Origin: Muribaculaceae bacterium
GTDB taxonomy: Bacteria; Bacteroidota; Bacteroidia; Bacteroidales; Muribaculaceae
Reading direction: 5' to 3'
Length of the DNA stretch: 64,000 nucleotides
Assembly: GCA_017557625.1 (NCBI GenBank)
Contig: JAFYYG010000046.1
Coordinates: 44,271-108,270 of the forward strand
Below, one piece after another: positions 9,335-25,825 of this stretch (the first letter of the stretch is position 1; every line of letters starts with the position of its first letter). The notes beneath the pieces were generated by a model that saw only the letters and a program-made list of their open reading frames with translations, had not been told where the DNA came from and made no database searches. The translations under genes and the position numbers were made by a program.

Positions 9335-10828
9335 ATGATTGACACAACACAATTGACCCAATTAATCTCCGCGTTCCGTGTGGAGACGGAGAAGGAGTCG
9401 ATCTCGCCGGAAACCGTCGGCTCACTCCTTCAGAACATCACTGACTTGCTCGCTAATGCGTCAAGCTCCACCGAGCAGCAGATCTTCGAGAACTGGAAGG
9501 CGATTCTCTCGCAACTCAACCTCGTTGAGGACATCGGTATAGGTGTGGAAGGCGTTGAGAGCGTGAACATCGCCATCTCTCTGCGCGACCTCGCCAACGG
9601 AGGACACTCTGCACGCCTTTTCAACATCCCTTCTGCAACACCACTGCGTGCAGGTGTGATGACCGCTCAGCAAGCAAACACTCTGATGACCATTGATGCA
9701 GCTGTTGGCGCATTGGAACTCGCCGTAGTGAACATTGGCAACAAGAACGCTGAGCAGGACTCGCGACTTGACATCATTCAAGGAGGCCATTCGGTGATTA
9801 CCGCCATCACACAAGGTGATGACCACCCGTCGAAGGTGTATTTCAATATCCGAAAGCAGAACCTTGCCACTGGAGAGGAGTACAACAAGAGCAACAACAA
9901 GGAGATTGCTCCTGCGACCAACGAGAAGGCTGGAGTGATGACGAAAGCACATGTCCAGGCTCTGGAGAAAGCAGCACAGGATATCGGCAACCTGCGACAG
10001 CACGTCGACCTGCTGCGGCAACCGCAGATGTATGTGACCGGTGTATATAACCGTCCACATACTAAGGACAGTGTATTTCTGGGAGTGGAGTTCACGGACG
10101 TGTGGACTGGGGACATCATTGAGGCAGGCGACGACATCGAGATTCCTGGAGCCACCGCACAACAGGCTGGCGTGATGACTGCTAAGCACGCAAAACGTCT
10201 TGATGACGCTGAGCGCGACATCTACAACCTGAAGAACGCGCCGGGCGGCGCTGCATCGAAGTCGATGTTCCCCATCTCTGTCGCGATAGAGGAAGACAGC
10301 AACGGCGTGCACCTTAGCGTGCTCGGTGCGAAACCGCTGCTTGACAGAGGATATTATCCTTTCCTTTTCAGACTCTCGAAGAAGCGCAACTACATCCCTC
10401 ACGACGAGACGCACGCACGCGTGCACAAGGGATGGCACCGTGTGGGGCAAGGCACCGACACGCTGCACATCACCGACAGCGGAAGAGTGTCGATAAGCAT
10501 CACTGCACTGAAACACGCAGATATCGATATCGACGCTGAAGAGGAGAACTACAGAGAAGAAGCTGAATGGTTTGTCAACGACCGCGAGAAGAACGGTCTG
10601 CACGTGGCAAGCTACGGAAACAGAATCATCAAGATCCAATATCTGACAGGACATGAGGTGAAGTCGCATAAGGTGAGACTGCTCTATGGCATCGCATTCT
10701 CGAAACAGAAACCGTCACCCAGGGAGAAGTTCGACATGTCGCAACTGGTGACGGACATCGCCACTTTCCATGTGTCGACTGTGCCTTATAACCACGGAAG
10801 CGAATACCGATGGGTGTTCGAGAGATAA
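9335..10828 (+). CDS. Fibre-like phage structural protein with AGVMT repeats (497 aa)
   Basis: The N-terminal 60 residues look like a helical trimerisation or attachment region. Three repeats follow, each with the core AGVMT (ATPLRAGVMTAQQANTL, ATNEKAGVMTKAHVQAL, ATAQQAGVMTAKHAKRL) and a helix after it. The last 150 residues are beta-rich and His-containing, like a receptor-binding or fibre tip domain. Such repeats typify tail-fibre shafts in Bacteroidota phages. A terminator hairpin touches its start codon, and its stop codon lies within the A/T run that terminates the minus-strand RNA at 10827-10921. Confidence 0.6.
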   Translation: MIDTTQLTQLISAFRVETEKESISPETVGSLLQNITDLLANASSSTEQQIFENWKAILSQLNLVEDIGIGVEGVESVNIAISLRDLANGGHSARLFNIPSATPLRAGVMTAQQANTLMTIDAAVGALELAVVNIGNKNAEQDSRLDIIQGGHSVITAITQGDDHPSKVYFNIRKQNLATGEEYNKSNNKEIAPATNEKAGVMTKAHVQALEKAAQDIGNLRQHVDLLRQPQMYVTGVYNRPHTKDSVFLGVEFTDVWTGDIIEAGDDIEIPGATAQQAGVMTAKHAKRLDDAERDIYNLKNAPGGAASKSMFPISVAIEEDSNGVHLSVLGAKPLLDRGYYPFLFRLSKKRNYIPHDETHARVHKGWHRVGQGTDTLHITDSGRVSISITALKHADIDIDAEEENYREEAEWFVNDREKNGLHVASYGNRIIKIQYLTGHEVKSHKVRLLYGIAFSKQKPSPREKFDMSQLVTDIATFHVSTVPYNHGSEYRWVFER

Positions 10829-10921
10829 AAAAAAGGTGAGCCTGAGCTGCACCTTCACAAAGGGGAATGAGCCCGAGCTGCACTCCCGCATCATGTGTGA
10901 GCCCGAGCTGCACACATTCTC
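10827..10921 (-). ncRNA. Candidate three-hairpin small RNA with invariant loop
   Basis: Read on the minus strand, three hairpins follow a textbook promoter. Hairpin 1 (10893-10917) pairs atgtgtg/cacacat, hairpin 2 (10863-10887) pairs gggagtg/cattccc with one G-U, and hairpin 3 (10833-10855) pairs aaggtg/cacctt. All three present an 11-base loop, cagctcgggct in the first two and cagctcaggct in the third. Hairpin 3 runs directly into eight U, forming a terminator. Predicted length is about 95 nt. The stems are unrelated in sequence, so pairing is kept by covariation while the loop is kept by sequence. No known RNA family was recognised. Confidence 0.65.
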
Positions 10922-10927
10922 TCGATG

Positions 10928-10958
10928 CAAAGGTACGCATATTAAATGAATTGACAAA
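10928..10958 (-). promoter_or_regulatory. Consensus promoter of the three-hairpin RNA
   Basis: On the minus strand TTTG (10955-10958), exactly 19 bases, then TACCTTTG (10928-10935). This is the full Bacteroidota housekeeping promoter; transcription would start near 10921. Confidence 0.75.
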
Positions 10959-10985: not shown

Positions 10986-11492
10986 ATGGAGATTTTTATT
11001 GAGACTATGAAGGGGGCATCGCTCCACATCCATGCGGTGTGGCTCGCATTGACCTACATCGCCGTGATACTGGCGATGGCCATTGATTTTGTGGCCGGGC
11101 TTCGCAAGGCGAAAGCGGCAGGCATCGCATCGAACTCACGCGGTTACAAGATGACCACGGAGAAGGCAGCGAAATACTTCCTGCCGATGCTCTGCCTGAC
11201 GTGCGTCGACATCATGACATCGGTCATTCTGCCGGCACCGTTCTTCACGATGCTGATGGGAGGATTCAACATCTTCTGCGAATGGAAGTCGGTGATGGAG
11301 AGCACCCATGACAAGCAGGAGATGCGCGAGGCGGCGAACACGCTGAACGTGATCGTGAAGAACAAGGACGACATCGTGGGAATCATCACACAGGCGATGG
11401 AGTTGATGGCGAAGAAGCAGGAACTCGAGAGTAAGAACAACAATACTAACCAAAACACAATCGAACATGAAGAAGAAAGTAATGAACATTAA
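10986..11492 (+). CDS. Phage holin family protein (168 aa)
   Basis: One hydrophobic segment lies near residues 18-38 (VWLALTYIAVILAMAIDFVAG). A hydrophobic pair follows near 65-97 (YFLPMLCLTCVDIMTSVIL, then PFFTMLMGGFNIFCEW), and the C-terminus is a charged coil with many Lys/Glu. This is the layout of the holins found beside amidases in Bacteroidota prophages. Holins open the inner membrane so that the lysis enzyme reaches the wall. The amidase (12834) and the spanin-like gene (13442) follow, completing a lysis cassette with two intervening genes. It overlaps the next gene by 26 bases. Confidence 0.7.
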   Translation: MEIFIETMKGASLHIHAVWLALTYIAVILAMAIDFVAGLRKAKAAGIASNSRGYKMTTEKAAKYFLPMLCLTCVDIMTSVILPAPFFTMLMGGFNIFCEWKSVMESTHDKQEMREAANTLNVIVKNKDDIVGIITQAMELMAKKQELESKNNNTNQNTIEHEEESNEH

Positions 11493-14619: not shown

Positions 14620-14919
14620 TTGGAACCGCAGGAGGCAGCTTATGGAGATAGTGTCCGTTAGAGACCCCCAATATATTTTGCCTCTCGCCATACCGACACC
14701 GGGGCTGCGCCCTCGGCTCTTTGTGGCTTCAGCAGAGCTCGCCACTTAGGTGACGAGCCGGAAGATCATCGGCACGCCGAAACGCCCTCATTCCCACCCC
14801 TCATAGCGACAGGTCGCTTCCCTCAAAACACCGTGCAATGGGCACACATGATGCTTACTCTAAAGTGCTGGCGCCGCCCTGCCTCCGCCGTCGGTTATGC
14901 TGTCGTGAGAGTGCTGCCC

Positions 14920-14962
14920 ATGACCTGCCGCAACTCCGCTGCGCTACGTGTGCGCCAGTCAT
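14920..14962 (-). other. Hairpin C1 of the duplicated region
   Basis: Outer stem atgac/gtcat and inner stem cgca/tgcg enclose a loop containing ACTC and CTACGT. Its counterpart in the second copy is 15634-15668. Confidence 0.4.
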
Positions 14963-15049
14963 CGGGGCGTGTCGCTCTTAACCTAGTGGTGGGGACGCTC
15001 CGAAGTCGCACGGCTGAATCCTACGCTAACGCAGGTGTCCGACCTGTTG

Positions 15050-15098
15050 CCATAACGACACCCGAGCACTCCTGCGTCGGCATCGGGTATCGCCATGG
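15050..15098 (-). ncRNA. Loop-conserved hairpin A1
   Basis: A 16-pair stem from ccat/atgg inward; the three A-C oppositions on the plus strand become G-U on the minus strand. After a one-base bulge the loop carries GACGCAGGA (minus strand). Confidence 0.6.
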
Positions 15099-15191
15099 CG
15101 GTCGAAACTTGCTGTCGCTGCGGCTTCCTCCTTTGCTCCTTCCAAGCTTGTCACTGCGTGGCACAATCGCTGCGCAGGTGTTGACCTGTTG

Positions 15192-15239
15192 CCATAACGA
15201 CACCCGAGCTTCCTGCGTCAGCGTCGGGTATCGCCATGG
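15192..15239 (-). ncRNA. Loop-conserved hairpin A2
   Basis: Same stem as A1, but the apical part is gct/agc around GACGCAGGA. It is followed, as in the other copies of the duplication, by a short spacer and cACTTGCT (plus strand). Confidence 0.6.
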
Positions 15240-15270
15240 CGGTCACCACTTGCTTTCAGCTTGACTACGT

Positions 15271-15286
15271 CACGTGCTACTGCGTG
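15271..15286 (-). other. Small hairpin B1
   Basis: cacg/cgtg stem with loop tgctactg. The partner B2 at 15979-15994 has catg/catg with loop tgctacag: one C-G pair replaced by T-A. Confidence 0.4.
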
Positions 15287-15633
15287 CCACCGCACCACGA
15301 GGGCGACACTCTACGCACACTCACTCCTTGAGCTCCACTGACGGACGCTGCGCTCTACAGCACGGCAGTCGCCATCACACGCAAGCATCCACTACTTTGC
15401 CCATTGCACGGCAGAGAAGTGTTCGCTGCACTCACGGTTTGGTAGAGCCTGACGGCGAACAGTGCACGATGGTCGGTTAGGTATTCGACAGGGTGGCGGG
15501 AGTGCCGATTGTGCCAAAGGCTGACGGAGTGAGCTGATGGAAGCCACGGCAGAGCCACACGCATCCGGGACATGGCGGCACTCTCGCTGCGGCCAACGCT
15601 ATCAGAGGTCTTGAAAGTGCTGACCCCTTGCCA

Positions 15634-15668
15634 TGGCGCAACTCTCCACTACGTTGCGAGATGCGCCA
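15634..15668 (-). other. Hairpin C2 of the duplicated region
   Basis: Perfect 7-bp stem tggcgca/tgcgcca; the loop has ACTC and CTACGT as in C1. Both C hairpins are followed by gggg-(ca)cgtgtcgctc. Confidence 0.45.
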
Positions 15669-15761
15669 CACAGGGGCACGTGTCGCTCGTTCCTCATGGC
15701 CGGGACGCTCCGAGTTCGCACGGCAGAGAAGACTACGCTAAAGCCGTGGGGCTCCCTTTCC

Positions 15762-15804
15762 GTGCGGAGACCAAAGCTTCCTGCGTCAGCATTTGGTCTC
15801 GCAC
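15762..15804 (-). ncRNA. Loop-conserved hairpin A4, stem rewritten
   Basis: Stem gagaccaaa/tttggtctc (9 bp) plus outer gtgc/gcac and apical gct/agc around the same GACGCAGGA loop. The stem shares almost nothing with A1 to A3, but the one-base bulge on the same side and the loop are retained. Confidence 0.65.
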
Positions 15805-15900
15805 CCGGTCGCTTCACTTGCTCCGCTACGTCTCACCGCCTTACCTCACTCCAAGCTTGACACGCTGTGGCACAATCGCTGCGCAGGTGGAGCGCCCTTT

Positions 15901-15948
15901 CCATACCGACACCCGAGCTTCCTGCGTCAGCGTCGGGTATCGGCATGG
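15901..15948 (-). ncRNA. Loop-conserved hairpin A3
   Basis: 16 pairs from ccat/atgg inward; both A-C oppositions on the plus strand are G-U on the minus strand. The loop is identical to A2. Confidence 0.6.
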
Positions 15949-15978
15949 GTCGCCTCACTTGCTACGCTTGGCTGAAGC

Positions 15979-15994
15979 CATGTGCTACAGCATG
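15979..15994 (-). other. Small hairpin B2
   Basis: catg/catg stem with loop tgctacag, the counterpart of B1 at the same place in the second repeat copy. Confidence 0.4.
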
Positions 15995-16231
15995 CCACCC
16001 ATCCACGAGGGCGACACTCATCGCACACTCAAGCCCTCCACGCTTATGTACCTACGCTGTCGTTATGCCATCGTCCCCGATGCTCGGAGGTGGCTCTAAT
16101 CATCGTGACGGCAGCAATGGCATAGAGCTGTATATAAATGATGTGTAGGAGTTGAATGATGTGTGCAATGATGATATGACAGTGGTGGGAGATGGGATGC
16201 CGTTGCGCCTTCAAGAATGGGCCGTGAGGAT

Positions 16232-24292: not shown

Positions 24293-25528
24293 TTACTTCT
24301 TTTCGTATAGAACCCAATCAAGCACTTTACGATTTGCGTCATCAACTTTTTGCTGGTCAAAGTCTATATAGATGTCTGTAACTGTGTTTCCACCGTGTCC
24401 CAGAGCATGAGCTATGGTGTCCCGTGGTATATCGAGACTGGCTGCTATTGTTGCCCATGAGTGACGTGCCCAATATGATGATATGTTTGGAAATAACGGC
24501 TTTCGCTCTTTCTTCCCACCCAATCCACTGCGTTTTAACGGGCCAATGTTCTTCAAGGCATTGTTCATGTGCTTGGTGAAGTCATGGTAGTCATTATATC
24601 CATCCAGGATGTTAAGCAACCAATTCTTGCCTCTGTATTTCTCGATTATTTCCATAGCTTCCTTCTCAACTTTAATGGAATATAAGCGTTTAGTCTTTGC
24701 TCGATGGTAGTTGATTCTGCCATTGGAAATCTCTTTAAGGTGACAGAGATCAATGCTGTTGATTCCTATAAGCATGAACATCAGCTTGAACATGTCTAGA
24801 TACTTCTGTGCATACTTTTCGCAAGGATAATTGATTAGCGTCCTCAAATCCTCAACTTTCAAATTGCGTTTTGCAGTTGCCACTGGACGAATCTTAAAAC
24901 GTCTGAAAGGATAAGCGGTTGTAATATCCTCATCAATAGCTTCATTGAAAACAGCACGGATGTTGCGGAAATGAATGTTTCTGGCATTTTGCGAAGGTGA
25001 TGTCTCAGACAAGAATTTCTCAAACGAAGTGAGCCAATCTTTGGTTATGTCTTCGAATTTTAGTTTGGTAAGATGCTCACCCTCAAAGATCTCCATGCGT
25101 GAATAAGTGTGCATATAGATTTTGCGGGTACTTGGTTGTTTGCTGTCAGCGAACTTCAAAAACCTTGTTGAGAAAAGATTCTTGTATTCAGTAATTTCTT
25201 TCTCCTTTTCCGCTTTCTCAGGATGTATAAGCTGATCAATATGCTTCTTGATGTCAACAGCTGTCATTGAAGCGATTTTCCCTTCACTAACTAGTGAGAG
25301 GATTCCATAATCAACCTTTTGCTTAACACCTGAGATGTAGACGTTAAGCTTCATCTGCTCTGGATGATTAATCACCTTCAACTTTTTGCAATCCCACTGA
25401 TGGGTAAAAATCTTTGAGTTTAGTGACACATAGACAGTCTTATGCCTATGAGCAATTGCAATTTTCAAAACACTGGGTTTGCCAGGTTTTGTTCTCCGGT
25501 CATCTAAAAAAATCCTGGTACTTGCCAT
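24293..25528 (-). CDS. Tyrosine-type site-specific integrase (411 aa)
   Basis: Layout is typical of Bacteroidales integrases: an N-terminal arm-binding domain (about 1-100), a SAM-like core-binding domain (about 110-210) and a C-terminal catalytic domain. The nucleophile is Y387 (TDIYIDFD), with H378 in LGHGG and R355 in WARHSW. Two usual catalytic positions differ: the first Arg appears as N257 (IGINSIDL) and the His of HxxR as Y352 (SYWAR). Related Bacteroidota integrases also vary here, so activity is likely but not assured. The gene reads away from tRNA-Val, whose 3' end faces it 220 bases away, the classic position for integration into a tRNA gene. Confidence 0.85.
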   Translation of the reverse strand: MASTRIFLDDRRTKPGKPSVLKIAIAHRHKTVYVSLNSKIFTHQWDCKKLKVINHPEQMKLNVYISGVKQKVDYGILSLVSEGKIASMTAVDIKKHIDQLIHPEKAEKEKEITEYKNLFSTRFLKFADSKQPSTRKIYMHTYSRMEIFEGEHLTKLKFEDITKDWLTSFEKFLSETSPSQNARNIHFRNIRAVFNEAIDEDITTAYPFRRFKIRPVATAKRNLKVEDLRTLINYPCEKYAQKYLDMFKLMFMLIGINSIDLCHLKEISNGRINYHRAKTKRLYSIKVEKEAMEIIEKYRGKNWLLNILDGYNDYHDFTKHMNNALKNIGPLKRSGLGGKKERKPLFPNISSYWARHSWATIAASLDIPRDTIAHALGHGGNTVTDIYIDFDQQKVDDANRKVLDWVLYEKK

Positions 25529-25587
25529 AATAAAAAGAGAGGCACTTGCAACTTTATCGCTTTTTTCATTTCAGATTGCAAAGAAAA

Positions 25588-25610
25588 ATGAGCAATCAAA
25601 TGAGCAATCA
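25588..25610. repeat. Direct repeat between integrase and tRNA
   Basis: Two copies of atgagcaatca separated by one base. Close direct repeats between an integrase gene and its attachment site are often arm-type binding sites. Confidence 0.45.
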
Positions 25611-25696
25611 TTTCACACAAAAAGAATGAAAACATAGGAAAAAGAGTGCATAGTTGCCATTTTTTTTAACGGCTCGCAAGGGTCAATTATAAGAGA

Positions 25697-25741
25697 AAAT
25701 CGCTGATAGTCTTGAATTAATCAAATTACTATCAGCGATTT
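25697..25741 (-). terminator. Hairpin after tRNA-Val
   Basis: A 14-bp perfect stem (aaatcgctgatagt / actatcagcgattt) with a 17-base loop lies just past the tRNA 3' end. It could terminate the tRNA transcript or belong to the phage attachment region. Confidence 0.55.
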
Positions 25742-25750
25742 AATCTTGGG

Positions 25751-25825
25751 TGGGTGCTGACGGATTCGAACCGCCGACCCTCTGCTTGTAAGGCAGATGC
25801 TCTGAACCAGCTGAGCTAAGCACCC
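25751..25825 (-). tRNA. tRNA-Val (anticodon UAC)
   Basis: On the minus strand the acceptor strands gggtgct/agcaccc, a D-arm with AGCTCAGCTGG, an anticodon stem tctgc/gcaga with loop cTTACaa, and a T-arm with GGTTCGAATCC give a full cloverleaf with anticodon TAC. No CCA is encoded. The 3' end points at the prophage, so this is the likely integration target; no second copy of its 3' end is in the window. Confidence 0.95.

Follow-up and report, generated by a model that had tools for sequence, protein, structure and literature searches.

A predicted small RNA gene with three look-alike hairpins upstream of a holin-like gene in Bacteroidales prophages

The window (the whole stretch of 64,000 nucleotides from a Muribaculaceae genome that was analysed) contains, on the minus strand of a prophage, a predicted small RNA gene with three look-alike hairpins. 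As judged from the comparison with related loci, it is a gene kept for the structure, the strand and the spacing of its RNA. Our preferred explanation, which is held tentatively, is that it encodes a trans-acting RNA of a Bacteroidales prophage lineage, in which three equal sites would titrate an RNA-binding protein of the host or of the phage. The first-pass annotation of this DNA had proposed a self-contained minus-strand phage RNA of about 95 nt. This proposal finds support in the promoter, the hairpins, the U-run and the position, all kept in the relatives, and in the covariation of the stems.

The RNA gene and its locus in the window

The minus-strand promoter, the three hairpins and the U-run were confirmed at positions 10827-10958, with the letters of stems and loops as first annotated (Table 1). 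What had been described as an invariant loop of 11 nt folds on in each hairpin into a bulged C, the three pairs AGC/GCU and a tetraloop (UCGG or UCAG), whose sequence differs from phage to phage and, in most arrays, from hairpin to hairpin. The stems, described as unrelated, all end in the same G-C pair. In the window their 5' arms all end in GUG, and the outer stems consist of Watson-Crick pairs throughout, except for one G.U in hairpin 2. The sequence GTGCAGCTCRGGCTCA has three mismatch-free copies in the window, all in the RNA, and none was found elsewhere in the same genome with at most one mismatch. Two of the eight T at positions 10834-10827 double as closing bases of hairpin 3; a generic terminator scan, restricted to loops of 3-8 nt and perfect stems, does not list this terminator.

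Table 1. Coordinates of the predicted RNA, its elements and the flanking genes.
Feature	Position in the window	Strand	Basis
-33 promoter box TTTG	10955..10958	-	Read directly; sigma-ABfr consensus TTTG / TAnnTTTG (PMC7366714)
-7 promoter box TACCTTTG	10928..10935	-	19 nt from the -33 box; such a box in all 13 arrays listed
Predicted small RNA, about 95 nt	10827..10922	-	5' end placed from the promoter, 3' end at the U-run; fold and covariance model (44.1 bits, E 2e-12)
Hairpin 1: AUGUGUG / CACACAU, bulged C, AGC/GCU, tetraloop UCGG	10893..10917	-	Read and fold
Hairpin 2: GGGAGUG / CAUUCCC (one G.U), bulged C, AGC/GCU, tetraloop UCGG	10863..10887	-	Read and fold
Hairpin 3: AAGGUG / CACCUU, bulged C, AGC/GCU, tetraloop UCAG; terminator hairpin	10833..10855	-	Read and fold
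Run of eight U, predicted intrinsic terminator	10827..10834	-	Read directly
497-aa phage gene without family match	9335..10828	+	Homologue in 18 of 18 RNA-bearing loci compared
Holin-like gene, 168 aa, divergent from the RNA	10986..11492	+	PF05105 E 4e-4, below cut-off; phrog_20732 E 9e-32; phrog_199 holin E 3e-4

The minus strand of the RNA gene folds with a z-score of -2.75 (3 of 200 shuffles equally good), and no shuffle of 200 is equally good when pairing is limited to 34 nt. The plus strand gives a z-score of -2.76 (2 of 200 shuffles). Since these scores are similar, folding alone does not give the strand, which is given by the relatives. For the window RNA without its 5' GCAUC, the unrestricted optimum is a longer-range fold of -37.7 kcal/mol, against -37.0 kcal/mol for the three local hairpins.

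The RNA gene sits in a prophage, where plus-strand late genes precede it, including a portal-like protein (phrog_11226, E 9e-5), and where an endolysin, a tape-measure protein and an integrase lie beyond it. The 497-aa gene, whose position and internal repeats suggest a tail-like protein, meets the 3' end of the RNA with its stop codon. Concerning the holin-like gene, the best PHROG is phrog_20732, of unknown function, and the holin family phrog_199 comes second. The integrase (phrog_1, E 2e-24) and a tRNA-Val on the same strand, at positions 24293-25825, mark a likely end of the prophage. Between the lysis genes and the tape-measure gene, positions 14679-16031 hold hardly any convincing coding sequence and contain direct repeats of 128 nt (81% identity) at a distance of about 709 bp, together with nested copies of 141 bp.

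Structure, strand and core of the related arrays

Eleven distinct arrays, that is 33 hairpins, all keep the promoter, the three hairpins, the core spacing and the 3' U-run. The cores are spaced by 29, 30 or 31 nt in 13 of 13 arrays despite a varying leader length. The 13 arrays listed also match TTG, a spacer of 18-20 nt and TAnnTTTG (TAATTTTG in L006), the full -33 box TTTG being absent from some of them. By its promoter pattern (TTTG, about 19 nt, TAnnTTTG), the RNA is a predicted Bacteroidota sigma-ABfr transcription unit.

An alignment of ten arrays (A4) with 22 scored pairs was used to assess covariation. In this alignment, 94.1% of the cells pair, although hairpin 1 of the window is out of register by its bulge and counts against the structure. 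Double-sided changes affect 10 of the 22 pairs and 26 cells, for shuffled means of 5.2 and 7.8, and none of 500 shuffles reaches either value. A covariance model (R2) was built from eight arrays, with the window and L006 excluded, and replaced a model R1 whose automatic structure was poor. R2 recovers the window at 44.1 bits, L006 at 53.7 bits and L068 at 44.8 bits (the R2 E-values, including that of Table 1, are rough). On the plus strand, the window scores 20.7 bits. In the outer stems of the 33 hairpins, we counted 15 G.U wobbles and no A.C, both being allowed alike; the arrays are related, so the 15 G.U are not independent, and the count omits L011 (a near copy of L010) and L069 (a near copy of the window). 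This bias points to the minus strand as the RNA strand. Compensatory changes and a strand-specific wobble are both present, as in a structured RNA gene. Local folding (span 34) is equalled by at most 6 of 200 shuffles in each of the 11 arrays; a competing fold exists for hairpin 2 in L010 and L023, and hairpin 1 is weak in L022.

Two other roles were rejected. Concerning a coding role, the ATG open reading frames of the transcripts reach 15 codons at most, only L010 and L023 have one in common, and the spacing is 29 or 31 nt in 8 of the 13 arrays. Concerning a DNA operator, the outer arms covary, and the wobbles in them are those of a single strand.

The conserved part of each hairpin can be written G-(U.U or C-bulge+A-U)-GC-YNNN-GC-U-C. 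With cores located by a regular expression that required GC....GC[T/G]C or AC....GTTC, and that yielded exactly three cores in every array, the collar GC/GC is found in 32 of the 33 hairpins (the remaining one has the paired change AC/GU), and is followed by U in 32 and by C in all 33. The pair below is G-C in 33 of 33 hairpins, and the other outer-stem positions take several pair types. The junction is U.U in 22 hairpins, a bulged C plus A-U in six (window and L068) and A-U in two, with one case each of C-bulge plus C-G, G.U and UC/U. The tetraloop always begins with a pyrimidine, its other letters are variable, and tetraloops differ within eight of the nine clades compared. The identity of the cores could come in part from common descent of the three copies. 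With one mismatch allowed, the core pattern has 13 matches outside the array in the same genome, against two for a reversed control. Among the seven of these that were inspected, none can be extended into a stem and six fall within long open frames; the matches outside the array are therefore taken as coding coincidence.

Distribution of the array

With the holin-like protein as query, 11 viral contigs were found, seven of which carry the array; the holins of the four array-less ones are 47-49% identical. The same search in genome contigs gave 28 loci, with the array in 11 of the 27 whose upstream DNA was read (L032 begins inside the holin gene and was left out). Among the array-less genome loci, L030 has retained the promoter and the first part of the array, which then breaks off (about positions 1190-1315); it runs on into another promoter-like box and a gene, as a cut or recombined copy. 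The holin frames of L034 and L039 are broken, L033 shares its upstream DNA with L039 and has a holin match of 112 residues, L047 has merely 62 residues of holin, and the remaining eleven have holins of 47-60% identity. In each of the 18 RNA-bearing loci read, the array lies immediately upstream of the holin-like gene, and a homologue of the 497-aa gene is also present, in some at 33-39% identity. In 21 array-less loci, pieces of this gene were seen in three (26, 41 and 163 residues). Records with the array bear the names Muribaculaceae, Prevotellaceae, Prevotella or Bacteroidales, and several titles give ruminant hosts.

At E 1e-3, R2 has a match in 14 of 101 genomes of the genus, 12 of them strong (E 3.5e-9 or better); the other two (G032 and G079) are single terminator-like hairpins. 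Searches of the family and of the order were run with stricter filters, which lose weak matches: 19 of 397 family genomes match at 1e-4, namely the same 12 strong ones and seven weak ones; of 393 order genomes, 14 match, the window's own genome being the only strong one. No strong match was found outside this genus in the genomes searched. Six alignments of weak matches outside the genus (25-33 bits) were read. Four of them belong to other families and two to the same family but to other genera; L245 matches in part, and the other five are hairpins of terminator type. The weak matches in the window's own genome are terminator-like or poor. Four viral loci recovered by a loose DNA pattern were discarded as low-complexity. 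Further loose patterns gave at least 120 plus 12 stretches of viral contigs, of which 80 and 11 (91 in total) were scored with R2. The strong ones among these 91 are L242 and L236, on the contigs of L010 and L011, and L237, a further copy with UUCG loops; L171 and L149 were rejected as coding repeats.

A blastn search of 50,697 phage records (E up to 1) gave no match to the array. Among the matches listed, the nearest holins of named phages are at most 46% identical and come from Bacteroides phages such as LoVEphage and BS-TP2. The holin regions of two such phages gave one R2 match, in LoVEphage (L278, 5074-5190, minus strand; 18.7 bits, E 1e-4), about 1.6 kb downstream of its holin match and on the opposite strand. 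At gathering score, the Rfam 15 families detect only two tRNAs in the window and nothing in six relatives. At a permissive threshold, nothing credible matches the RNA (best sR60, 18 bits for 50 needed), and a non-exhaustive literature search found no description of this three-hairpin RNA.

Possible functions of the RNA

In the explanation that we prefer, the RNA gene would occupy a moron-like place in the late operon, with the opposite orientation, and the housekeeping polymerase of the host would make the RNA in the lysogen. The RNA would act in trans and its partner would be a protein. Each hairpin would offer the same site, in which a U.U mismatch (or a bulged C with A-U) lies between one G-C pair below and two above, closed by a YNNN cap, and the three copies would bind and titrate the RNA-binding protein of host or phage; the tetraloop would vary since the protein reads the helix and not the loop. 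A protein partner is suggested because strict sequence conservation falls on a mismatched or bulged helix, present three times at nearly fixed spacing, while the part available for base pairing is free. On the other hand, a role in cis would account at least equally well for the position next to the holin, which is constant over all loci read, and the competing fold of hairpin 2 and the weak hairpin 1 mentioned above do not favour this explanation. Hairpin 3 resembles ordinary Bacteroidota terminators, and the motif may therefore descend from a terminator. A lysine-rich 73-aa gene was rejected as partner: among 39 loci, only the near-identical L005 has it.

To our knowledge, phage small RNAs have been described mostly from Enterobacteria and Firmicutes. 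The word element "bacteroid" does not occur in a 2025 review (PMC12197685), and Bacteroides has no obvious Hfq or ProQ (PMC7366714). The small RNAs FopS and GibS of Bacteroides are known with the protein RbpB, and FopS also comes from sigma-ABfr promoters; as described there (PMC11697453), FopS consists of a single-stranded 5' seed region and one terminator hairpin, whereas the present RNA is a hairpin array in which no seed was seen. That the array represents a new prophage RNA family sequestering a hairpin-binding protein of gut Bacteroidales seems to us rather unlikely. If this is true, the phage would have discovered, and would point the way to, a global RNA-binding protein recognising GC collars with a U.U mismatch. 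With its covariation support and its three equal hairpins resembling protein sites, the RNA could serve as bait for RNA-binding proteins in Bacteroidales, the group for which Bacteroides is the model, and it also offers a testable control point for phage lysis.

Because the location is constant, antisense action on the overlapping late transcript, or interference with its transcription, is the chief rival, to which we give a low but real probability. Over its whole length, the RNA is complementary to the stretch of late mRNA that separates the 497-aa gene from the holin, and its transcription, or its duplex with this mRNA, would keep leaky late transcription from the lysis genes, as for OOP, aQ and sar. 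The promoter is directed away from the holin gene, with its -33 box 28 bp upstream of the ATG. In such a cis action, the hairpins would give stability and a start for pairing, so the loops may drift; the tetraloops do drift while the structure is kept, as expected if the target is the other strand. However, it leaves unexplained the same GC collar, U.U mismatch and 30-nt spacing in all three hairpins. Moreover, several caps are UUCG, a stable loop that is poor for kissing, and the RNA ends short of the holin leader, with the start codon uncovered. RNA I of ColE1 is an antisense RNA of about 100 nt with three stem-loops whose loops vary between relatives. The present RNA is alike in size, in its three stem-loops and in its varying loops, but its hairpins share one core motif and no plasmid copy control is involved. 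OOP, aQ and sar are short RNAs. OOP and aQ of lambda and sar of P22 are likewise phage RNAs antisense to a phage gene, and OOP and aQ come from promoters of their own (PMC12197685); contrary to these RNAs, the one described here has three look-alike hairpins, a fixed spacing and a conserved mismatch, and its action in cis is hypothetical.

It is improbable that the array is a tandemly repeated terminator, maintained by inertia or as a roadblock, whose RNA would have no partner. Hairpin 3 does resemble common terminators of other genomes (AGGUGUGC....GCACCU and the like), and five U follow hairpin 2 in L068, but the other 10 of 11 arrays have no run of four or more U after hairpin 1 or 2. Hairpins 1 and 2 show, furthermore, nearly exact spacing and covariation, and the conserved promoter drives this RNA alone. 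A host-terminator origin of the perfect palindrome GTGAGC..GCTCAC was rejected, with one site in the same genome, equal to the control.

The first-pass annotation saw the loop sequence as the functional part, pairing with a phage or host transcript, with three copies for multivalency; this we regard as quite improbable. It had named uncompensated stem changes or a freely drifting loop as counter-evidence: the stem changes proved to be compensated, and the loops do drift. In the window, two of the three hairpins have identical tetraloops, as do all three in the UUCG clade, and over nine clades the loops are identical in 6 of 27 pairs within arrays, against 10 of 324 between them, a value as high in 17 of 10000 permutations. 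Without the UUCG clade, the values are 3 of 24 within and 10 of 252 between arrays, and 881 of 10000 permutations are as high; the difference of loops between phages and inside nearly all clades also speaks against a function of their sequence. In the phage regions of 13 loci, two complementary sites of 9 nt are each found at corresponding positions of two phages that have the same loop, at about 1470 bp (L008/L031) and about 5900 bp (L031/L020) upstream of the holin. Nevertheless, phages with other loops also contain most of these letters: L022, L006 and the window for the first site, which lies on the strand opposite the gene, and L027 for the second, so these sites look like conserved coding sequence. 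In the phage regions searched, the UUCG loci gave no complementary site of at least 9 nt, and no site following the loop was found. For host targets, the search consisted of the core pattern in the window's own genome.

Mimicry of a defence RNA, either of a CRISPR repeat (as by Racr) or of the antitoxin of a type III toxin-antitoxin or AbiF system, is very doubtful. Phage RNAs of related kinds exist (PMC10651486, PMC12373285), AbiF genes adjoin phage lysis modules (PMC12373285), and Abi_2 genes occur in 3 of 12 RNA-bearing genomes against 6 of 89 other genomes of the genus. Racr is described as a phage small RNA mimicking a protein-binding RNA (PMC10651486), whereas the present hairpin does not resemble the CRISPR repeats seen in the genus: those obtained with a simple finder in 26 of 33 fetched stretches (L080-L112) are unlike it when compared by eye. 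Cas1 is found in 3 of the 12 genomes with the RNA and in 29 of the 89 others, and CRISPR repeat mimicry is not supported. The abiF RNA (RF03085) and the RCd22 antitoxin RNA, of about 100-130 nt with repeated hairpins, are likewise phage-borne, with their own promoter and terminator, in the lysis region (PMC12373285). Unlike abiF RNA, the present RNA has a different motif without Rfam match, and no Abi_2 match was found in its own genome. Neither the RF03085 motif nor an adjacent Abi_2 gene was found at the RNA, and R2 gave one weak match on 12 Abi_2 stretches (L267, 14 bits) and none at abiF RNAs, so that abiF antitoxin mimicry is not supported either. A ToxN search of 101 genomes gave no match, nor did its control genomes. 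Independently of the array, abiF RNA adjoins Abi_2 genes at L258, L260, L262 and L265, in three genomes of this genus. The genus also carries several unlike CRISPR repeat types (L080-L112), presumably I-C, II-C and V-A.
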